From Alteromonas macleodii ATCC 27126 (GTDB lineage: Bacteria; Pseudomonadota; Gammaproteobacteria; Enterobacterales; Alteromonadaceae), in contig NC_018632.1 of NCBI RefSeq assembly GCF_000172635.2, forward strand, positions 2,232,001-2,296,000: a stretch of DNA of 64,000 nucleotides. Reading direction: 5' to 3'. Positions 11,283-56,776 of the stretch are shown in pieces. The translations under genes were made by a program, and so were the position numbers. The first letter of the stretch is position 1. Each line of letters begins with the position of its first letter. Under the pieces are notes generated by a model. It worked only from the letters and a program-made list of their open reading frames with translations, was not told the DNA's origin and searched no databases.

Positions 11283-14200
11283 TTATGAACGTTTCATGCG
11301 TCTACGTAGGTAAACTGCTGGAGCAAGAAGCAATGCAATCCAGCCCATTGAACCACCAGACTTATCGTTAACGCGAATAGTCACGCTTTCTGTAGTAGTT
11401 TCAATACCATCTGAAGCCGTTACTTGAACCGTTACACGGTTAGACTGTTCGTTACTAGGCGCTGTATCAGTGAACGAAGTGCGCTCTACACCGTTAATGG
11501 TGATAGTCACGTCGTCTCCGTCTGCGTCAGTTGCAGAAGCAGTTACAGTGTAAGACTGACCTTCATCAACGCTAGTTGGAGCAGATATTGAAATAACTGG
11601 AGCATCTTGCACACCTGCAACCGCTACAGTTACTGTGCCTTCACCAACAATTTCACCTTCAACTGGCTCTTCGTTTTCATCAATTGTACCTTCAACACGA
11701 ACGGTGTATGTAAATGAATCTTCACCGAAGAAGTCAGTATTTGGTGCATACGTTACTGTTCCATCATCATTTACAGTTACTGTGCCATTTGCTGGCTCAC
11801 CAGAAATTACAACTGTTGATGGATCAAGAGGCGCTTTATCAATAGTGATAGGCGTAAACGTACGGAACTCACCAGACAGAGAGTCCATGGTGAATTTATT
11901 GATGATTGTGCTGTCCATTTCGTTAGCAAGAATGTTAGCCGTTACCGACGCATCTTCGTTAACTGACAACATGTCGTCCATATACTCACTAGATGGAACA
12001 ACAGTACCTGCGTAGCTGATAGTAACTTCGTCACCCGCATTAGCAGTTAGTACAAATTCGTCACCTTCAACTGGAAGGGTACCTTGAAGGCCCGCAGATG
12101 TTAGTGCAGCGTACGTTGTACCAACGCTACCTGAAATGTTTTCAGCTCCAACTACCGTTGCGTAAACAGGTGAGTCCATTGGACCATATACAAAGTTTAC
12201 GTTGCCTGTTTCGTACTCAAACCACAACTGGAAGTTAAAGCTTGTGCCATCTTCATTCCAAATTTGAGCGTTTTCCCACTCAACAACAAAGTGACCTGTT
12301 GTAAGGCTTACTGCGTAGATATTACCAGCGCCTGCACCGCCACCCGCAAGGTCAAAATCAGTCCAATAAGGTGCGACAATATTGTTTGGCTCACTTAGGC
12401 TTGGCAATACTTCTGCAAACGGTGTAGTAATGTTGCCAGAGCTTGTACCTAAAGATACAAAACCATTAGATGAAATCTGCATGGTTGTGTATTCGCTACC
12501 TAAGTAAGTGATAGTGCGAGGTAGGCTTACTTCAATTGAAGCGTCATCACACGAACCAGAGCACTCTAGCGGCGCAACACCAATAGATGCCATTGGTACG
12601 TAACGGTCAAGACCAAAACCTTCAAGTATGTCACCAATAGTAGTATCTGCGTTCATCGAGAAAGATGCAGTGTTAAGTGCGCCTTCCCAATATACGGTAC
12701 CTGAGTCAGCGTCATAGCTCACTGGCTCTTGGTTTCCGTTTTTAACAGCAGAAATTGTAGAAGGGTTAATCGCATATTTGTGGTCAATTTCACCCGTGAT
12801 GCTGATCATACCAGTTACGTCAGTGTTAGTAGCAAACGCTTCGGTTACCACCAATTCACCTTCAGCTGCTACTTGCGTGCTTACATCGCTGTCAAACAAT
12901 GATGGTTCATCACTGCTAATAGGATAGATAGCTACTGGTATGAAATAATCGGTTGTTGTGTCGTCAGTGTCTGCCCAATTAATACCACCGAAAGACCATG
13001 ACCCTGTAGACGCTGTTGTTACATCTACTGCTACCATAATTTCAGCTGAAGCACCTGCTGCAAGGGTTGCCATTTGAGGTGTAACGGTTGCAGAAATAGC
13101 TGAGTCATTAAACATTGCTGTAGCATCGACTGTAACTTCTTCATCGCTGGTGTTTGTTACAGTGATAGACATTTCGCAGTTCAGGTAGCAGTTACCGTCT
13201 ACTAAGCTTAAATCGCTATAAGTTAGCTCTACCGTTGTTGCACGAGGAAGATCTAAACGACCTGCACCCATGTCAAAGTTGTCTGCTGCGGTAGACGCAT
13301 CTTCTTTCAAAATATCGCGAATTGAAGAAGTTACAAGCGCACTCTTTATTTGCTGTGCAGTCCAATCAGGATGCATTTGCTTAAGGAGTGCAGCTGCACC
13401 AGCTACGTGTGGCGATGCCATTGAAGTACCGTTCTTGAACGAGAAGTTCTGGTCTTCGTGTCCTGGTGCATCCGGTGATTCGCCAGAGAAGATGCGAGTA
13501 CCAGGAGCAGCAATATTAGGCTTAAGGAACGTCGGGTCGCCGTTAGGACCGCGAGAGCTGCTTTCATTCATGATGTCAGCAAGGCTGTCTGAAACAACGC
13601 GAACAATATCGCTACCGATAGTTACATTTAGCGACTCTTCAGTAGTTTCAGCTAGGTTAGCAAGCGCTAAACCTGGTGTAGCAGGAAGCATAAGTGATGG
13701 AATTGTTTGAGCTTCACTTAAGCCGCCCATTAATATTGGCGCTTCACCGCGTCCATCAACGTTATGAATAAGAACAGCAGTTGCTCCCGCTGCCTCTGCG
13801 TTTTCAATTTTAGTCACGAAACCACACGTACCACGGCTGATAAGCGCAATTGCACCATCGAACGCGCCCGCAGCAAATGCATCACAACCTTCTACGTTTG
13901 CCGCATCTACTTCGCCTGCATAAACAACAGGTGCAGTAATTGGGCTATCAAATACAATGGCAGGGTTGCCCACTGAGTAAAGGGCCGGAATAGAACCTAA
14001 AGTGGTATCGCCTTCAACGGTCACCTCGTTTGCGAACAAACGACCCGTTGTTGTATTTGCGACCGTTATTACGTCTTCTGAACAACCAGGACAGCCAATA
14101 GTGCCAGCACCCGGACCATCGTTACCCGCTGCAAAAACGGTAACAACGCCCGCATCGTGCATGGCTTCAAGTACGTCTTCATATACTGAGCCGTTAGGGT

Positions 14201-24165: not shown

Positions 24166-24529
24166 GAATACATTTGTTTAAATTATAAACAATTTTTGTG
24201 TGAATTTTATCTTACACTCTCAACGTCAGTTAAATTGTAGAACTTATACGTTAGTAATCAATGGACTAAAAACTGGTCGGATGTGATGTTTTTTGAGAAA
24301 AAGATGTACAGTTTATATCCACATGTTGCACACATTTTATCCACGTGATGAAGCGTTGTTAATATATACCCTTTTTAAATATATAGACTTACTTTCATTC
24401 ATGTAAGTTATGTTGAAAACAGACGGTTGTACCATGCCATTATCCTTGTAGTATGACGTCAACGTTCATGCTAAATATGCGTGATACTGACTCTAAAAAC
24501 AGGCTCTTACATTAATACGAGGATGGATT
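24166..24529. other. AT-rich intergenic region upstream of the aminotransferase
   Basis: About 360 bp without a gene. It should contain the promoter of the aminotransferase and possibly that of the small RNA candidate. It carries a half FadR-like site at 24271-24287 and isolated DnaA-box-like words. Nothing firmer is supported. Confidence 0.4.
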
Positions 24530-25651
24530 ATGCAATCATTTTCTACTTTTATTCCCCCTGAACGGACTTTGATGGGTCCTGGACCATCCGATGTTAACCC
24601 CAGAATTTTAAACGCCATGGCGAGACCCACCCTGGGCCATCTCGATCCATTATTCATTGAGTTAATGGACCAAACCAAGCAGCTTTTACAGTATGCGTTT
24701 AAAACTGAGAATGCACTTACTATGCCTATTTCTGCTCCGGGCTCAGCAGGAATGGAGGCATGTTTTGTTAATCTTGTAGAACCAGGCGATAAGGTACTCG
24801 TGTGTATTAACGGCGTATTTGGCAATCGAATGGTCGAAAACGTAGAGCGTTGTGGTGGTGAGGCTATTACCGTCAACAATACATGGGGCGAGCAAACTGA
24901 CCTTAATGTGGTAGAAGACACCCTTAAAGCCAATCCGGATATTAAGATCCTTGCCTTTGTTCACGCAGAAACATCTACGGGCGTACGCAATGAAGCCAAA
25001 GCGCTTTGTGAGCTGGCTAAAAAGTATGATTGTCTTAGCATTGTTGATGCAGTTACCTCTCTTGGAGGTGTCGAGTTAGATGTTGACGGTTGGAGCATTG
25101 ACGCTATTTATTCAGGTTCGCAGAAGTGTTTGAGTTGCGTGCCGGGTATCTCTCCTGTTTCATTTAGTGAAAGAGCAGTTAACGTTATTCAAAACCGAAA
25201 AACGAAAGTGCAAAGCTGGTTTCTAGACATGAACTTGATTGTTGGTTATTGGGGGCAGGGCGCCAAGCGTGCCTACCACCATACCGCACCTGTCAACAGT
25301 ATGTACGCTATGTACGAAGCACTTCTGATTTTAAAAGAAGAAGGCTTAGAAAATGCGTGGCAGCGTCATGCATTGGGTCATGAAAAACTTGCGCAGGGTT
25401 TAAGTGAACTTGGGTTAGAGCTAACGGTAGACAGTGCTTATCGTTTGCCTCAATTAAATGTAGTTAAAATTCCAGACGGCGTAGACGATGCTGCCGTTCG
25501 CAAGCAATTGCTTGAAGATTTTAATTTAGAAATCGGCGCCGGTTTAGGCGATCATGCCGGTAAAGTATGGCGAATTGGTCTTATGGGATACGCATGTAAA
25601 CCCCGTAATATCGATCACTGCCTTGCTGCGTTGCGCACTGTGCTTAAGTAA
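24530..25651 (+). CDS. Class V aminotransferase, alanine/serine-glyoxylate type
   Basis: 373 residues, PLP fold type I. It begins with LMGPGPSDVNPRILNAMARP and contains ISAPGSAGMEACFVNLVEPG, the aspartate in SIVDAVTSLGG, and the PLP lysine in GSQKCLSCVPG. The C-terminal RIGLMGYACKPRNIDHCL is typical of alanine-glyoxylate aminotransferases. It should convert glyoxylate to glycine with alanine or serine as donor. Serine-glyoxylate, or another substrate of the wider group such as (S)-ureidoglycine, cannot be excluded. Single gene with a GAGGA ribosome site. Confidence 0.88.
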   Translation: MQSFSTFIPPERTLMGPGPSDVNPRILNAMARPTLGHLDPLFIELMDQTKQLLQYAFKTENALTMPISAPGSAGMEACFVNLVEPGDKVLVCINGVFGNRMVENVERCGGEAITVNNTWGEQTDLNVVEDTLKANPDIKILAFVHAETSTGVRNEAKALCELAKKYDCLSIVDAVTSLGGVELDVDGWSIDAIYSGSQKCLSCVPGISPVSFSERAVNVIQNRKTKVQSWFLDMNLIVGYWGQGAKRAYHHTAPVNSMYAMYEALLILKEEGLENAWQRHALGHEKLAQGLSELGLELTVDSAYRLPQLNVVKIPDGVDDAAVRKQLLEDFNLEIGAGLGDHAGKVWRIGLMGYACKPRNIDHCLAALRTVLK

Positions 25652-36127: not shown

Positions 36128-36450
36128 GTACGCGACGAATTACTCTCTTGTATATGAGCTTTCACCACTCCCATACGTAACACTTATGCGTTTTCTTTTG
36201 TCATTGAGCGTTCCAAAATACTCAACGCAACAGTTTCGCAATATTTCTGTACATTTTTCCTGCAAGTTTATAAATGCCTTTTATACTCACAATAAAGCAA
36301 TAACTATTTGATACGACTAATGTTGTAAATTTTGTTAACTGGTAGGATTAGTTCTTGCGGTTATGGCAAAATGATGTAATGATTTTGTTAATCGTTATGG
36401 TTGGTCATGATGTCACGTATTAAGTCACATCGACTTGGGAGTATAAAAAT
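36118..36450. other. 333-bp promoter region of the DUF1302-RND cluster
   Basis: No gene seen. It holds a FadR-like site at 36337-36353 and must contain the cluster promoter. A short ORF-like stretch here has no ribosome site or protein-like composition. Confidence 0.5.
36337..36353. promoter_or_regulatory. FadR-like operator
   Basis: AACTGGTAGGATTAGTT matches 13 of the 16 defined positions of the FadR consensus AACTGGTCNGACCAGTT, with a perfect left half. It is 98 bp before the DUF1302 start. Binding by a FadR protein is inferred. Confidence 0.45.
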
Positions 36451-38511
36451 ATGAAAAACGGGCCTAGCGCTTTTAAGATATCACCGGTAGCAGCGGGAGT
36501 TCTCTCACTGCTAGGTGCTGCTGCAGTACCAGCACACGCTGCGAATTGGCAAGTGGGTGATGTAAGTATTTCTTTAGATTCAACATTTACATTAGCTACA
36601 AGTATTCGAACAGAGGCAAGAGATTACGACCTTATAGGTAACAGTAACCATCCTCAATTCGACTGGAGCGGTTATCACGCAGCTTTCAACCCTTTATACC
36701 CAAGTGGCGACGTGTGGGGTTTAGCAGATGGTGGTTATTCCACCAATGGTGACCTTGGTAACCTTGCACACGATCCAGGTGACGCGTTTGCAACGCAAAT
36801 TTCAGGTACTCATGAATTAGATATCAATTTTGGCGACTATGGTTTCTTCGCCCGTGGTTTCTGGTTCTACGACTTTGAGCAAATGGACGGCGACCGTCCA
36901 TACTCTAACCCAATAACGGGTAACCAATACGACTTGTGTCAAGACCCTGAAGCAGAAGACCTACTGTGTACCGATGTACGTCTTTACGACGCATTCTTTT
37001 ATGGCGACTGGTGGATTGGCGACAAACCACTTACGCTTCGTGTAGGCCGTCAGGTCATCAGTTGGGGTGAAAGTACATTCATCCAGCACGGTATTAACAC
37101 AACGAACCCTGTTGATGTAACACGAGCTCGTGCTCCAGGTGCAGAACTTAAAGAAGTATTCCTTCCAGTAGGGATGGTGTACGCGTCTTTAGGTTTGACT
37201 GACACAGTGAGTATTTCTGGTTACTACCAGTACGAATGGCAGCGCAGCTGGCTTCCAGTTTCTGGCAGCTACTTCGCGGGCAACGACTTTGCAGGTGAGG
37301 GCGGTCAACGCCAAAATATCCAGCTTGGTTTCAGTGGTAACCCAGACATCGACTTAGATCACCTCCTCACTGCGTTAAACGGATATGGCGATTTGCTTCG
37401 CTCTGGCGCTAATCCAGCTGACATTTCGCAAGCCTACCTTGCTTATCCAACCAAAGTGGCTATCCGCGGTTTTTCTGACGAAGCGCACAATGACGCGGAC
37501 GATCAGGGTCAATACGGTTTACGCTTGACGTGGTTTGCTGAGAATTTGAATGAAACAGAGTTTAGTTTCTATCACATCAATTACCACAGCCAACGCCCGC
37601 TTATTTCAGGTAAGACATCCGATTTTACTGCTGAAGGAATTGGCGCGGATCTCGCGTTCCTAGCGTCTAATACCGTTACTCGCGACAACATCACTGAACT
37701 GGGTGCATTTACACAGTCAGAGTTCTTCTACCCAGAAGATATCAAACTTTATGGTATGAGCTTTAACACTAACATCGGTACTACGGCTCTTGCGGGCGAA
37801 TTTGCTTACCGTGTAGATGAGCCGCTTCAAATCGATGATGTTGAATTGCTTTACATGGGTATGCCAGAGCAGCTAGCGAATGCTGGGCTACGTCCAGATT
37901 TAGAAGGTATTTCACAGCTAAACAATATCGGAAGAGCAGTAGGCCCAGGCGAAACAGCGGAAGGTTATCTATTCTCTGATACATGGCAAATGCAGTTTAC
38001 TGCCTCACACGTGTTTGGCCCTAAATTTGGCTCTGACAACTTCGTACTATTAGGCGAAGTAGGTTATGTGAACGTTGTAGATATGCCAGATCCGAACGTA
38101 ATTCGCTTAAATGCGCCTGGTACAGCACGTACGCCGTCACTAGAGCCTATCAATGGCAATAGTCGTGAAGGTTTACACCAAGCGCTATCAGACGGACCAG
38201 AGACTAACCCGTTTGCTACTGACGATGCGTGGGGTTACCGCTTACTTGCTGTCGCTGATTACAACGACGTCATGGCCGGAATTAACTTACGTGCTCGTGC
38301 AACATTCTCTCACGATGTAGAGGGTACAACACCAGACCCTCTATTCCTTTTCACAGAAGATGTTAAGTCTGCTGCAATTTCATTGACGTTCGACTACCTA
38401 AGCAAGTGGTCAGCAACAGCGTCGTACAGCGCTTTCTGGGGCGGTATTGGTACTACTAATGCGCTATCAGACAGAGACTTCGTTTCATTTAACATCAAAT
38501 ATGCAATCTAA
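36451..38511 (+). CDS. DUF1302 family outer-membrane beta-barrel protein
   Basis: 686 residues. Signal peptide about 1-30 (AAGVLSLLGAAAVPAHAANW). The mature protein is rich in aromatic-alternating strands (SLDSTFTLATSIRTEARDYD; VGRQVISWGESTFIQHGINT; ISLTFDYLSKWSATASYSAF) typical of DUF1302 barrels. The family is predicted to be an outer-membrane channel and is often next to DUF1329, an arrangement seen in clusters for hydrophobic compounds (recollection). First of four genes; the next start is 12 bp on. Substrate unknown. Confidence 0.88.
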   Translation: MKNGPSAFKISPVAAGVLSLLGAAAVPAHAANWQVGDVSISLDSTFTLATSIRTEARDYDLIGNSNHPQFDWSGYHAAFNPLYPSGDVWGLADGGYSTNGDLGNLAHDPGDAFATQISGTHELDINFGDYGFFARGFWFYDFEQMDGDRPYSNPITGNQYDLCQDPEAEDLLCTDVRLYDAFFYGDWWIGDKPLTLRVGRQVISWGESTFIQHGINTTNPVDVTRARAPGAELKEVFLPVGMVYASLGLTDTVSISGYYQYEWQRSWLPVSGSYFAGNDFAGEGGQRQNIQLGFSGNPDIDLDHLLTALNGYGDLLRSGANPADISQAYLAYPTKVAIRGFSDEAHNDADDQGQYGLRLTWFAENLNETEFSFYHINYHSQRPLISGKTSDFTAEGIGADLAFLASNTVTRDNITELGAFTQSEFFYPEDIKLYGMSFNTNIGTTALAGEFAYRVDEPLQIDDVELLYMGMPEQLANAGLRPDLEGISQLNNIGRAVGPGETAEGYLFSDTWQMQFTASHVFGPKFGSDNFVLLGEVGYVNVVDMPDPNVIRLNAPGTARTPSLEPINGNSREGLHQALSDGPETNPFATDDAWGYRLLAVADYNDVMAGINLRARATFSHDVEGTTPDPLFLFTEDVKSAAISLTFDYLSKWSATASYSAFWGGIGTTNALSDRDFVSFNIKYAI

Positions 38512-38522
38512 GAGTGGTATTT

Positions 38523-39890
38523 ATGATTAGAAAAGTAGGAATTATCGCTGCGGCTTTGTCACTTGCTCTGTCAGGTGCAAGCGCGATGGCAAAGGTGTCT
38601 GACGCAGATGCCAATAAACTAGGTAACGAATTGACGCCACTGGGCGCTATGAAAGCAGGTAATGCAGACGGCAGTATCCCAGCGTGGACTGGCGGTATTA
38701 CTTCAGCACCAGCGGGCTACACAGTGGGTGATCACCATCCAGACCCGTACCCTGAAGATAAAGTGCTATTTGAAATCACGGCACAAAACTACAAAGAATA
38801 TGCGGACTTTCTATCTGAAGGTCAGAAAAAGCTTTTCGAAGCTTACCCTGAAACCTTCCGTATGCCGGTTTACCCAACGCGTCGTTCTGCGTCTAATCCC
38901 CAGGCTATCTACGATGCAACTAAGGTAAATGCAACTAGCGCGGAGCTATTAGACGGCGGTAACGGAATTAAAGGGGCTGTTCTTGGTATTCCGTTCCCAA
39001 TTCCACAAAATGGTCTTGAAGCAATTTGGAACCATATACTTCGCTATCGCGGTGAAGCGGTTCAGCGTAATGGTGGTCAAGCTGCAGTAACAACTGGCGG
39101 TGATTACAACGTAATCGGTTTCGATGAGCAGTTATTAATTAAGTACGCAGAAGAAGGTGCTACACCAGAAAAGCTTACTGACGAAAACGTCCTTTTCATG
39201 TTTAAACAAAAAGTAACAAAGCCTGCTCGTTTGGCGGGTACAGCACTGCTTGTACATGAAACAGTTGACCAAGTAAAAGAGCCGCGTAAAGCATGGACCT
39301 ACAACACGGGTCAGCGACGTGTACGTTTGGCCCCAAACATTGCTTATGATACACCTGGAACTGCAGCTGATGGCCTTCGTACTACCGATGACTTTGATAT
39401 GTTTAACGGCTCACCAAACCGTTACAACTGGAAGTTAGTGGGTAAGAAAGAAATGTTCGTTGCATACAACAACTATGCACTTCATTCAGATAATGCGAAG
39501 TACGATGACATCTTAAAGCCAAATCACGTTAATCCAGACCTAACACGTTGGGAAAAACACCGCGTTTGGGAAGTAGAAGCCACATTGAAAGACGGTTTCC
39601 GTCATATTTATCAAAAGCGTGTATTCTTCATTGATGAAGATAGCTGGCAAATTCAAGTTGCTGATATGTATGATAATCGTGGCGAACTTTATCGTGTTGG
39701 TGTAGCGTATGGTGTGAACTATTATGAAGTACCTACCCAGTGGTCTACGCTGGATGTGTACCATGACTTGAACTCTCGTCGTTACCTGGCCATTGGCCTC
39801 GATAACGAAGAAGAGATGTACGACTTCACCGTACGCCCACGAGATGTGGAATTCACACCTCAGGCGTTACGACGAGAAGGTATGCGCTAA
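38523..39890 (+). CDS. DUF1329 family periplasmic protein
   Basis: 455 residues from the ATG at 38523; a GTG 9 bp upstream is the alternative. Signal peptide about 1-25 (IIAALSLALSGASAMAK). DUF1329 signatures: ANKLGNELTPLGAMKAGNAD, IPAWTGGI, GIPFPIPQNGLEAIWNH, and late QRRVRLAPNIAYDTPG and SWQIQVADMYDNRGELYRVG. The fold is thought to be LolA/LolB-like, which suggests a carrier for lipid or another hydrophobic ligand in the periplasm (recollection). It follows the DUF1302 gene closely and ends with a terminator hairpin. Confidence 0.88.
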   Translation: MIRKVGIIAAALSLALSGASAMAKVSDADANKLGNELTPLGAMKAGNADGSIPAWTGGITSAPAGYTVGDHHPDPYPEDKVLFEITAQNYKEYADFLSEGQKKLFEAYPETFRMPVYPTRRSASNPQAIYDATKVNATSAELLDGGNGIKGAVLGIPFPIPQNGLEAIWNHILRYRGEAVQRNGGQAAVTTGGDYNVIGFDEQLLIKYAEEGATPEKLTDENVLFMFKQKVTKPARLAGTALLVHETVDQVKEPRKAWTYNTGQRRVRLAPNIAYDTPGTAADGLRTTDDFDMFNGSPNRYNWKLVGKKEMFVAYNNYALHSDNAKYDDILKPNHVNPDLTRWEKHRVWEVEATLKDGFRHIYQKRVFFIDEDSWQIQVADMYDNRGELYRVGVAYGVNYYEVPTQWSTLDVYHDLNSRRYLAIGLDNEEEMYDFTVRPRDVEFTPQALRREGMR

Positions 39891-39904
39891 TCGCCTTAAA
39901 CAAC

Positions 39905-39932
39905 AAACGGTTGGCAATTGCCAACCGTTTTT
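39905..39932 (+). terminator. Terminator hairpin inside the DUF1302-RND cluster
   Basis: Perfect palindromic stem AAACGGTTGGC / GCCAACCGTTT with loop AATT and TTTTT. It may partly separate the first two genes from the last two. Confidence 0.75.
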
Positions 39933-39969
39933 GTATGCAGACAATTATAAATAGGGGGAATGGTTAATT

Positions 39970-41016
39970 ATGAAAAAAACCATTGCAGCGTGCATTGCCG
40001 CCACTTTCGCAGTTAATTACTCTACAACTGCAATCGCCGAAGAAGCATTCATGGCACCACTGGTTGAGCAATCGGTTCTTTTGGACATAGACGCTGATAC
40101 ATTTGTCGTTATTGTCGGTGAACGCGGTCACGTGTTAGTTTCAAAGGATGGTGAGGCATTTACTCAAAAAGCCGTACCAACACAATCAACGCTTACAGCG
40201 ACAACTGTTGTAGGCGATAATATTTGGGCAGTGGGCCACGACGCTGTTATTCTTCATTCTTCAGATAAAGGCGAAACGTGGGAAATTCAAAATTTCCAAC
40301 CTGACCTTCAGCGCCCATTTCTAGACGTATTATTCTTCAATGAAAAGCAGGGGATTGCTACAGGTGCCTATGGCTTGTTCTATCGAACCTTAGACGGTGG
40401 AAAAACATGGACGGCAGAACGTCATGCCAGTCTGCTTGACCCAATGGATCAAGAATACCTTGAAGATATTCGAAAAGAAGATGAAGACTTCTATCAGCAA
40501 GAACTTGAATCTATTTTACCCCACTTAAACAGAATTACCCTTGATGGTGATACGCTTTACCTAGCAGGCGAAGCCGGGTTGCTAGCCAAAAGTACCAATA
40601 TGGGAGAATCGTGGGAACGGTATTACGTCGACTATACAGGATCGTTTTTCGATATTAAGCCGCTTGATGAAAATACCGTTCTAGCGGTTGGCCTTCGCGG
40701 AAATATATTTGTTAACAGAAACGAAGGTGAGTGGGAATACGTACAAACTTGCTCAACCAGCACACTAAATTCAATTCTAATTGGTTCTGAATCGAAGGTT
40801 TATGCTTTGGGTAACAACGGGATGATGGTAAGCGCACAGCGACCTTTACCCACCAGTATGCGAGACCCCTATGCAAACCTTTCAGATTGCGAAGCTGATG
40901 AAGGCATTGTCGTTTCACAAATTAAAGACAAAGCCGCGCTTCTTAATGCAACACAGTTTAAAGGTAAGAATATTGCCGTTACTGCGAATGGCATTAAAAC
41001 GTTGAATTTAAAATAG
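39970..41016 (+). CDS. Ycf48-like BNR-repeat periplasmic protein
   Basis: 348 residues. Signal peptide about 1-23 (TIAACIAATFAVNYSTTAIA). Repeated BNR/Asp-box motifs: SSDKGETWEI, TLDGGKTWTA and STNMGESWER, each in a blade of a predicted beta-propeller (photosystem II assembly factor Ycf48-like family). In non-phototrophs such proteins accompany MMPL/RND transporters and DUF1329; the role is unknown, possibly a scaffold. The start is supported by AGGGGGAA and lies 15 bp before the RND gene. Confidence 0.85.
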   Translation: MKKTIAACIAATFAVNYSTTAIAEEAFMAPLVEQSVLLDIDADTFVVIVGERGHVLVSKDGEAFTQKAVPTQSTLTATTVVGDNIWAVGHDAVILHSSDKGETWEIQNFQPDLQRPFLDVLFFNEKQGIATGAYGLFYRTLDGGKTWTAERHASLLDPMDQEYLEDIRKEDEDFYQQELESILPHLNRITLDGDTLYLAGEAGLLAKSTNMGESWERYYVDYTGSFFDIKPLDENTVLAVGLRGNIFVNRNEGEWEYVQTCSTSTLNSILIGSESKVYALGNNGMMVSAQRPLPTSMRDPYANLSDCEADEGIVVSQIKDKAALLNATQFKGKNIAVTANGIKTLNLK

Positions 41017-41031
41017 GGCAGTATAAAAACA

Positions 41032-43350
41032 ATGACCCATTTTCTTGAAAAATTAGTATTCGGAAACCGTAAAATTGTCGTAGCCTTGTTTGCTATAGCC
41101 ACAGTTTTCCTTGGTTACCAAGCTTCACAAATGCGCTTAGACGCAGGTTTTGAAAAGAACATACCGCTAAATCACGAATACATGAAAACGTACATTGAGC
41201 ACCGCCAAGATTTTGGTGGCGCTAACAATATATTAGTTTCTGTGTGTGATAAAAACGATAACATCTACAATCAAAACTTCTTCGATACACTAAAGAATGT
41301 TCACGACCAACTCTTCTTTATTAATGGGGTGAACCGTTCGTTAGTTATTTCGCTTTTCTCTCCTTCAACCCGCTTTACTGAAATTGTGGAAGGCGGCTTT
41401 GCAGGCGGACCGGTCATTCCTGCAGACTTTAATTCTGCAAGCCCAGAAGCATTAGAGTTGGTGGCTGCCAACGTAGAAAAGGCAAACATCGTCGGAAGAC
41501 AAGTATCCAGTGATTACAGCTGCGCAATGGTAACAGCGCAATTGCTCGATATTGACCCGCAAACTGGCGAGCCTCTCAATACGTTGGCATTAGCGGCAGA
41601 ACTAGAAGAGCAGCTTCGCGGTCAATATGAAAACGAAAATACGTCTATTCATATAATTGGCTTTGCAAAAATGATTGGCGATGTGGCCGACGGTGCAAAA
41701 GACGTGCTGATCTTTTTCGCCATTGCTATCGCGATTACTGCCGTAATGGTGTATTTCTTCTCGCGTAGCATCATGCTTACGTTATTGCCATTAGTATGCT
41801 CAATCATTGCCGTTATCTGGCAGCTAGGCCTGCTTACTTCAATTGGCTTTGGTATGGACCCTATGTCAATACTGGTGCCATTTTTAGTATTTGCCATTGG
41901 TGTGAGCCACGGCGTACAAATGATAAACGCGGTAGAAAAACAAGCAGTAACCGGTATTGGTGCTAAACGGGCATCTATGGCGGCATTCAGAAACTTGCTG
42001 GTTCCAGGCGGAATTGCATTGTTATCTGATACGGTTGGCTTTATGACGTTATTGGTAATCGATATCGGCATTATTCGCGAGTTGGCGATTACGGCAAGTA
42101 TGGGGGTAGCGGTAATAATCCTTACCAACTTGTTGCTGCTGCCTGTGCTGATGAGCTTCTTAAAACTTGACCAGAAATATGTCGAAAAATTCGCGGGTAA
42201 AGAACACGCTAATTCGAAATTCTGGGAAGTCATTGCCGCTTGTTCACGTAAAAAGCCTGCGGCAATAATTCTTATCGTTACTGCTATCCTATTCGTGTTT
42301 GGTCATTTCCAAGCTCAGAATATGAAGATAGGGGACTTACATGCGGGTGCACCTGCGCTTCATGAAACGTCACGCTACAATCAGGACACTTTCCTGATTA
42401 CCGATAAGTACGAAGTAACGGTAGATTACATTTCTATTTTGGTTGAAACCACACCAGAAGCTTGTACGTCACACAGCGTGATGAAGGCCATGGACGATTT
42501 CCAATGGAAAATGGAAAATGTTCAAGGCGTTCAGTCGGCGGTTTCGTTGGCTTCTGTTGCCAAAATTGTTAACGCAGGTTACAACGAAGGCAACGTTAAG
42601 TGGCAGGTACTCCCTCGTAACCAGCAAACATTGGTGCAGGCAATTTCTCGCGTTCCAACGTCGTCTGGTTTACTTAACGGCGACTGCTCGGTCATGCCAA
42701 TTATTCTGTTTATGGAAGACCACAAAGCAGAAACGATCTCTCGTGTCGTTGAAGCGGTAAAAGCGTATCGCGATGAATATCAAACCGATGATATGAAGTT
42801 CAGTCTTGCTTCTGGGCCTGTTGGCGTGATGGCCGCAACTAATGAAGCGGTTAGTGCAGCGCAAGACCCTATGATGCTTTATGTATTTGGCGCCGTTATT
42901 GCGTTGTGTCTAATTAGCTTCCGCTCACTGCGTGCTACGTTAGTTGTTGTTATTCCGCTGTATGTGGTGTCTGTACTGGCGCAAGCCTTAATGACATACC
43001 TTCAAATTGGCCTCACCGTTTCTACATTACCAGTTATCGCACTTGGCGTGGGTATAGGTGTGGACTATGGTATTTATATACTCTCTACCAAGAGCTTAAT
43101 GCTGAAGAAAGGCGCTACCGTTCAAGAAGCATATTTCGCTGCATTAAAAGAACGTGGAAGTGCTGTGCTATTTACCGGTATTACGCTGGCAATAGGCGTG
43201 AGCACATGGGTGTTCTCTTCGCTTAAGTTCCAAATGGATATGGGCATTTTGCTTACATTTATGTTCGTCGTGAACATGCTTGGAGCAATAATTGTACTGC
43301 CTGCACTAGCAAGATTCCTATGGTGGAACAAGAATGACCCTGATGCATAA
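41032..43350 (+). CDS. MMPL/HAE3-type RND transporter
   Basis: 772 residues with two repeats of one helix, a large periplasmic loop and five or six helices. Typical motifs: FAIGVSHGVQMINAVEKQAV and, in the second half, GVGIGVDYGIYILSTKS. The type resembles HpnN and MmpL exporters, which move lipids or other hydrophobic molecules from the inner membrane into the periplasm without a membrane-fusion protein. Its partners here are probably the three preceding genes. No membrane-fusion or TolC-like gene is present. Substrate inferred only from context. Confidence 0.9.
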   Translation: MTHFLEKLVFGNRKIVVALFAIATVFLGYQASQMRLDAGFEKNIPLNHEYMKTYIEHRQDFGGANNILVSVCDKNDNIYNQNFFDTLKNVHDQLFFINGVNRSLVISLFSPSTRFTEIVEGGFAGGPVIPADFNSASPEALELVAANVEKANIVGRQVSSDYSCAMVTAQLLDIDPQTGEPLNTLALAAELEEQLRGQYENENTSIHIIGFAKMIGDVADGAKDVLIFFAIAIAITAVMVYFFSRSIMLTLLPLVCSIIAVIWQLGLLTSIGFGMDPMSILVPFLVFAIGVSHGVQMINAVEKQAVTGIGAKRASMAAFRNLLVPGGIALLSDTVGFMTLLVIDIGIIRELAITASMGVAVIILTNLLLLPVLMSFLKLDQKYVEKFAGKEHANSKFWEVIAACSRKKPAAIILIVTAILFVFGHFQAQNMKIGDLHAGAPALHETSRYNQDTFLITDKYEVTVDYISILVETTPEACTSHSVMKAMDDFQWKMENVQGVQSAVSLASVAKIVNAGYNEGNVKWQVLPRNQQTLVQAISRVPTSSGLLNGDCSVMPIILFMEDHKAETISRVVEAVKAYRDEYQTDDMKFSLASGPVGVMAATNEAVSAAQDPMMLYVFGAVIALCLISFRSLRATLVVVIPLYVVSVLAQALMTYLQIGLTVSTLPVIALGVGIGVDYGIYILSTKSLMLKKGATVQEAYFAALKERGSAVLFTGITLAIGVSTWVFSSLKFQMDMGILLTFMFVVNMLGAIIVLPALARFLWWNKNDPDA

Positions 43351-43374: not shown

Positions 43375-43401
43375 AAAAAGGGCCTTTAGGCCCTTTTTTT
43401 T
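43375..43401 (+). terminator. Rho-independent terminator after the RND gene
   Basis: Stem AAAAGGGCC / GGCCCTTTT with a 4-base loop and a long T run. Confidence 0.9.
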
Positions 43402-56257: not shown

Positions 56258-56776
56258 TTAGAAGTTTGAGGTATCTTGGAACAAGCCAACTTTCAAATCT
56301 TTCGCTACGTAAATCTCACGGCCATCAACTTCTACTGAACCATCTGCCATACCCATGAAAAGTTTACGCTTTATCACGCGCTTCATCGTGATCTTATACG
56401 TTACCTTCTTAGCGGTTGGAAGGATTTGACCGGTAAATTTAACTTCACCTACACCTAAAGCTCGGCCTTTACCAGGGCCGCCGCTCCAACCTAAGAAGAA
56501 ACCAACTAACTGCCACATCGCGTCTAGGCCTAGGCATCCCGGCATTACCGGATCACCTGGGAAGTGACAATCAAAAAACCATAAATCGGGGGTAATATCT
56601 AATTCAGCGATAATTTCGCCTTTCCCATGTTCACCGCCATCTTCTGTAATTGAAACTACGCGATCCATCATTAACATGTTAGGTGCGGGAAGTTGACTGT
56701 TACCTGGGCCAAACATTTCACCACGGCTACACGCCAATAAATCTTCTTTGTTAAAACTATTTTTCTTCTCTGACAT
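56258..56776 (-). CDS. fabA: 3-hydroxydecanoyl-ACP dehydratase/isomerase FabA
   Basis: 172 residues from the ATG at 56776; a TTG 6 bp upstream is less likely. Active-site motif [20 protein letters not shown] with His71 and Asp85. It dehydrates and isomerises 10-carbon intermediates, the entry into unsaturated fatty acids. A partner FabB would be elsewhere. It is convergent with rmf, as in E. coli. Confidence 0.96.

Follow-up and report, generated by a model that had tools for sequence, protein, structure and literature searches.

An AmeABCD-type gene cassette of Alteromonas macleodii with a putative FadR-type operator: a candidate trans-envelope transporter for fatty acids

In the genome of Alteromonas macleodii ATCC 27126 (4.65 Mb, one contig), a 64 kb stretch was analysed, hereafter the window, which carries at positions 36451-43350 four plus-strand open reading frames (ORFs) in a tight row. 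By the ORF list and Pfam their products are, in order, DUF1302, DUF1329 and Ycf48-like proteins and a resistance-nodulation-division (RND) permease, here called A to D. On balance, though only slightly beyond an even chance, we read them as encoding a trans-envelope transporter of the AmeABCD type, which handles hydrophobic molecules and is tied to fatty-acid metabolism via the regulator FadR. The cargo that this copy carries across the envelope is most likely fatty acids or products of lipid breakdown. A fatty-acyl cargo is quite probable, and an inward direction is moderately favoured. The system itself is already in print; what is new here is the evidence on cargo.

Specifically, AmeABCD of Castellaniella defragrans was described in 2018 in a paper that already terms the cassette conserved (PMC6394551; this and all other papers cited here are drawn on in excerpts). 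It combines DUF1302, DUF1329 (LolA superfamily), COG4447/Ycf48-type and RND proteins in the same order, with no classical adaptor or TolC in the excerpted description. The genes at 36451-43350 agree with it in gene set, order and strand. The initial annotation of this stretch, made from the letters and ORFs, had proposed a candidate transport system; that the system is new is rejected, as AmeABCD matches it part for part and in gene order and is the same cassette. The two differ in their setting: AmeABCD lies in a monoterpene island and is induced by monoterpenes, whereas the Alteromonas copy sits between pepN-DUF2835 and an NAD-glutamate dehydrogenase (GDH) gene, behind a FadR-type box.

The predicted proteins cover the outer membrane, the periplasm and the inner membrane, as the initial annotation had it, and ORFs and Pfam also agree with the order and place it gave for the genes. 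A (36451..38511, +, 686 aa, AmeA-like) matches DUF1302 with 526.7 bits, the only Pfam family matched at E 0.1, and is predicted to form an outer-membrane beta-barrel of about 18 strands. B (38523..39890, +, AmeB-like, with an alternative GTG start at 38514) is a DUF1329 periplasmic protein (537.6 bits), whose proposed likeness to LolA is upheld by a LolA_like match of 33.4 bits and by a predicted LolA fold in its C-terminal two thirds, as expected of an AmeB-type protein. C (39970..41016, +, 348 aa, AmeC-like) has a signal-peptide-like start and is a Ycf48/BNR-type propeller (PSII_BNR/Ycf48, PF14870, 66.6 bits) that matches Ycf48 structures over residues 78-149 (E 8.1e-13). Sequence searches of the PDB gave nothing secure for A (E 0.75) or B (best E 0.03). 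D (41032..43350, +, 772 aa, AmeD-like) belongs to MMPL (PF03176, 93 bits), and has two large loops separating hydrophobic stretches; its residues H293, D678 and Y679 are the same in all 12 sequences aligned. Its earlier label, HAE3-type, holds insofar as TIGR00921 is the best NCBIfam match, but the 174.7 bits fall under the curated cut-off of 351.9; matches to HpnN (TIGR03480, 72.8 bits, cut-off 751.85) and to the BstA sterol transporter (NF045600, 32.2 bits, cut-off 1400) are also under theirs. The gaps of 79 bp (B-C) and 15 bp (C-D) stand as first given, while the A-B gap is 11 bp from the ATG at 38523, or 2 bp from the GTG at 38514, rather than 12. The genome holds one DUF1329 and one DUF1302 match.

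The four genes are inherited as a block. The DUF1329 gene was located in each of 35 other Alteromonas genomes and lies in the same cassette in all 35, with all four genes seen at 33 loci; the remaining two (L045 and L060, in the locus labels used throughout) lack D because the contig ends there. Beyond the genus, 80 named loci were collected via the RND protein, the best 80 of 573 confirmed candidates, and A-B-C-D occur in the same order and on the same strand in 68 of them. Where at least 5.2 kb of DNA is available upstream of D, the order is kept in 64 of 67 loci. The named loci span Gammaproteobacteria, Alphaproteobacteria, Betaproteobacteria, Desulfobacterota-type bacteria, Nitrospirota, Nitrospinota and Verrucomicrobiota. 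The neighbourhood survey suggested in the initial annotation thus finds the genes together elsewhere, and the predicted folds are of membrane and cavity type, so that the idea of a joint system survives on both counts on which it was to be challenged. The exceptions with enough upstream DNA are L193 and L203 (Nitrospirillum), where A, C and D are present and a DUF1329 gene was not found nearby, and L196, where an RND gene of family D and two further RND-type genes stand in a row with no A, B or C ahead. In three Wenzhouxiangella-type loci (L182, L192 and L205, the last with its start cut) two consecutive DUF1329 genes give the order A-B-B-C-D.

The first line of evidence on cargo is a putative FadR-type operator, AACTGGTAGGATTAGTT (36337..36353, +), which was noticed on reading the promoter and then assessed by an own-genome matrix and by conservation. 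For Escherichia coli, the FadR site is published as aaCTGGTCnGACC(T/A)Gtt (PMC9329746), and the host genome encodes a FadR (TIGR02812, 371.9 bits, cut-off 249.2). The matrix was built from seven own-genome sites ahead of fatty-acid genes, namely the best matches upstream of two acyl-CoA dehydrogenase genes, fadI, fadBA, fadR and the FadH-like and thioesterase genes, all identities being checked by Pfam or family searches. It has its weaknesses: the FadH-like and thioesterase sites were found with a pattern derived from the box itself, one site was a visual choice, and part of the consensus was fixed after the box had been seen. Upstream of fadL and of two other thiolase genes, no convincing site was found. 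At 16.1 bits the box ranks third in the window, and 14 of 100 shuffled windows contain a site as good. Against what we take to be the E. coli consensus it agrees at 12 of 16 positions, equal to four other window sites and below one. The score alone is therefore weak, and the strength of the box lies in its conservation among relatives. In all 35 readable same-genus sequences (L038, whose upstream DNA is missing, is outside this count) it is the top upstream match, between -111 and -125, on the plus strand throughout and with 12.9-16.1 bits, and the DNA ahead of it diverges. Order-level relatives carry a box at a similar place (L067, 17.0 bits at -99; L065, 16.8 bits at -117), and L032 has a site of 13.1 bits at -101. 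Among 66 upstream regions of the named set that were scored with the matrix, the box is found in all seven Alteromonadaceae-type loci (L134-L140, 13.1-16.1 bits, overlapping with the same-genus genomes) and, with 19.3 bits, in Paraferrimonas (L163). Sites in four Pseudoalteromonas (11.9-15.0 bits) and in a total of three Rheinheimera and Ferrimonas loci (13.2-14.2 bits) are not secure, because single shuffles reached up to 15.7 bits. Within the window, FadR-type sites as strong as the box also lie at 24271-24287 and 12800-12816 (17.1 and 16.9 bits, respectively), one intergenic ahead of an aminotransferase-like ORF at 24530 and one within a large protease-like ORF.

The box is directly followed by a conserved CTTGCGG and, further on, by AAATGATGTAATnATTT, which resemble a -35 and an extended -10 element 17 bp apart. 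The putative -35 hexamer, TTGCGG (36355..36360, +), is proposed from sequence and conservation and is absent from a consensus promoter scan. The putative extended -10 (AATGAT, 36378-36383) is covered by a conserved near-palindrome, AAATGATGTAATGATTT (36369..36385, +), which recurs unchanged in 34 of the 35 same-genus sequences and is kept across Alteromonas, Bowmanella and Rheinheimera-type loci, even those without the FadR-type box. As this is the sole exact copy in the genome, a search for it as a shared operator yields no regulon. With this predicted promoter, the box would lie about 45 bp ahead of the start and upstream of the -35.

The second line of evidence comes from the company that the cassette keeps in other bacteria. 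A total of 679 ORFs around the 80 named loci were clustered, and the families were partly checked by Pfam. In 37 of the 80 loci, from Alteromonadales and two Pseudomonas, the cassette adjoins pepN, GDH or pyrD; the other 43 lack these genes. Seven of the 43 carry a lipase-family lipoprotein gene (PF12262) upstream of A, at gaps of 4, 10, 11, 12, 15, 15 and 17 bp. The family was confirmed by Pfam in L174 and L190 and by BLAST cluster in the other five; a lipobox is found in five of the seven by script or eye (sequence seen in part, plus L192), and GxSxG with hydrophobic surroundings in six, L181 lacking it at that place. Beta-oxidation genes adjoin the cassette in six of the 43 (Desulfuromusa, Kiloniellaceae, a deltaproteobacterium, Competibacteraceae, Rhodospirillaceae and Azoarcus), and at L167 and L171 A-B-C-D are followed by ligase, FadB-like, thiolase and acyl-CoA dehydrogenase genes. 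Besides the lipase, the families present at at least four of these loci are UvrA (seven), FadB-like and thiolase (six each), and acyl-CoA ligase, acyl-CoA dehydrogenase, an AI-2E transporter and a 325-411-residue protein (four each). Found at three each are a convergent GDSL autotransporter esterase, EAL/GGDEF proteins, a 459-467-residue transporter-like protein and proteins of 452, 389-392 and 261 residues. UvrA and several other families are restricted to Opitutia-type loci, and lipase and beta-oxidation genes recur across classes. It is the FadR-type operator together with the lipase and beta-oxidation partners in relatives that argues for a fatty-acid cargo. The conserved A-B-C-D unit and the predicted LolA fold of B are counted in favour of this reading too. 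The initial annotation had left both substrate and direction blank; the box and the partners narrow the substrate to fatty acids, and for direction its caution stands.

Some same-genus relatives carry further, paralogous cassettes, and three of those examined adjoin aromatic-catabolism genes. Specifically, the L075 paralogue lies next to a XylR/DmpR-type activator and a catechol-2,3-dioxygenase-type gene, that of L080 next to a XylR-type activator, that of L082 next to a XylR-type activator and meta-cleavage-type genes, and that of L079 next to a Rieske protein and an MFS protein. Because of these neighbours, and likewise of monoterpenes in Castellaniella and benzene in strain ORM2a (PMC13101534), each cassette seems to accompany the pathway that deals with its cargo.

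We propose a model in which free fatty acids, or comparable products of lipolysis, would cross the outer membrane via the DUF1302 barrel. In the periplasm, the acyl chain would bind in the concave sheet of the LolA-fold DUF1329 protein, which would carry it over or form a bridge. The Ycf48-like propeller may dock on the RND permease; the latter, driven by the proton gradient, might deliver the cargo to the inner membrane or across it, for processing by acyl-CoA ligase and beta-oxidation. The NPC1-type kin of the permease likewise receive sterol from a soluble carrier and deliver it into a membrane. More tentatively, and with some doubt on our part, many bacteria may use such a proton-driven inward RND route for lipase-released fatty acids, with variants for aromatics, terpenes and steroid-like compounds. 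Even in E. coli, it is unclear how long-chain fatty acids that have passed the outer membrane reach the inner one (PMC9329746). A conserved four-part unit with a FadR-type operator, which elsewhere has a lipase at its head or beta-oxidation at its tail, is a candidate for the periplasmic fatty-acid step in many bacteria. If true, this would give a shared role to two large families of unknown function, DUF1302 and DUF1329, and would set an uptake reading against the published export reading of AmeABCD; substrate and direction can now be tested.

In favour of uptake, we count the lipase-headed operons, the catabolic partners and a phenotype in Pseudomonas putida, in which PP_0765/PP_0766 and PP_2018/PP_2019 are reported to be essential for growth on Tween 20 and were co-folded as a transport system (PMC10866462). 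These are the same four protein kinds, although by their locus numbers the P. putida genes are split over two places; in Pseudomonas L209 and L212, all four genes stand together behind pepN.

Several observations weigh against uptake of fatty acids under FadR. The AmeABCD paper infers export from a deletion that lowers monoterpene tolerance and leaves slightly more Nile Red in cells treated with carbonyl cyanide m-chlorophenylhydrazone (PMC6394551), and a profile search finds D distantly related to MmpL4/MmpL3, HpnN and NPC1-type structures, among which the MmpL3 and HpnN kin are lipid exporters. The host also encodes a FadL, the sole PF03349 match, located away from the cassette. No FadR-type box was found upstream of the cassettes of L069, L071 and L072, nor in Shewanella or Colwellia among the 66 scored upstream regions. 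Genome-wide, the FadR pattern counts (246 + 240) are not above those of a reversed control (334 + 328), in a listing that is incomplete, as the window's own exact site is missing from it. In E. coli, FadR activates from upstream of the -35, and repressing sites overlap -10/+1 (PMC9329746); the box position is therefore of the activating type and counts against simple uptake induced by long-chain fatty acids. The neighbour-gene counts, finally, stand without a matched random-locus control. The missing boxes do not reflect a missing regulator: FadR is present in 16 of 16 tested genomes with or without the box, and in 53 of 60 relatives, so that loss of FadR does not account for them; the box itself must have disappeared in these lineages or never have arisen. 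In Shewanella, a shrunken FadR regulon has been described (PMC5343134). A literature link between FadR and the cassette was not found, and one may be in print already.

The rival that survives best, if still unlikely, is export for detoxification, in which the RND permease would lift membrane-damaging hydrophobes such as free fatty acids or hydrocarbons from the inner membrane and pass them out of the cell by way of B, C and A, allowing life on such substrates. It has the published AmeABCD reading with its deletion and Nile Red data behind it, as well as the RND kin of known function (MmpL3, MmpL4, HpnN), exporters by name, and detoxification would likewise account for cassettes adjoining catabolic genes. 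However, lipase-cassette operons fit the uptake of released acids better. With monoterpenes as the only carbon source, moreover, the AmeABCD mutant showed little or no growth, and acetate rescued it, as would also be expected from a loss of uptake; its tolerance was lower at high limonene, but Nile Red efflux followed in real time did not differ between the strains (PMC6394551). As excerpted, these data do not settle the direction.

Considerably less probable is an endogenous-lipid role, with FadR switching on the cassette along with the genes for fatty-acid synthesis, and with the cell's own lipids or acyl chains being moved to or from the outer membrane. The place of the box just upstream of the predicted -35, an activating one for FadR (PMC9329746), speaks for this, as does the chromosomal place beside pepN, GDH or pyrD, which is fixed in 37 of the 80 loci in the way expected of housekeeping genes. 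Yet the cassettes elsewhere have catabolic partners, fabA (56261-56767) has no FadR-matrix site above 11.3 bits, and the promoter is a predicted one. That the box is a chance match or another regulator's site, and the cassette handles another hydrophobe, is very improbable: it would agree with the two equally strong window sites, one within a protease gene, with the shuffled windows and with the lack of a convincing site upstream of the host's own fadL, but not with a box conserved at one position in 35 of 35 sequences while the flanking DNA diverges, nor with similar boxes in other families.

The transporter proposed here for fatty acids can also be set beside other known systems. The 'Nanopod' cluster of ORM2a shares DUF1329, Ycf48-related, MMPL and porin-like proteins, and differs in its link to anaerobic benzene degradation and in its extra universal-stress-type proteins (PMC13101534). 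FadL, the long-chain fatty acid route, is an outer-membrane barrel like A but belongs to PF03349, which A does not match at Pfam E 0.1, and has 14 strands (PMC9329746) against the about 18 predicted for A; the reading as a FadL replacement was rejected, as FadL is present in the genome. HAE1 tripartite pumps (AcrAB-TolC) share the RND motor and the trans-envelope reach, whereas D has about 770 rather than about 1050 residues and the Alteromonas locus has no adjoining adaptor or TolC-type gene. HpnN, MmpL3 and NPC1-type proteins are RND lipid transporters like D, detectable by profile, and we know of no DUF1329 or DUF1302 partner in these systems. No adaptor, TolC-type or ABC gene adjoins the cassette, because the flanking genes are pepN and DUF2835 upstream and GDH downstream; this negative covers the neighbourhood and not the rest of the genome. 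This agrees with the absence of a TolC or ABC partner first noted, as far as adjoining genes go, and a TolC-type efflux pump was rejected for want of such a neighbour.

Among the minor features of the locus, a terminator-like hairpin, GGGCC-TTTA-GGCCC followed by a T run (43380..43401, +), was read by eye and is absent from the terminator scan. The fabA gene lies on the minus strand, 13 kb downstream of the cassette. Across lineages, no single regulator was found for all cassettes. A palindrome that we take to be PsrA-type, AAAC-N4-GTTT, is exact in five of five Colwelliaceae upstream regions (L141, L146, L147, L148 and L154) and in Arsukibacterium (L152), at 0.03 to 0.1 expected occurrences each, and in none of seven from Shewanella; an AAAC/GTTT palindrome with a longer spacer is seen in Paraferrimonas (L163). 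The Colwelliaceae palindromes are possibly a PsrA site. The Pseudoalteromonas upstream regions (L149, L158, L164 and L166) carry a TGGTAAGACGTCTTACCA-like inverted repeat, read in L149, with a partial fit to FadR.

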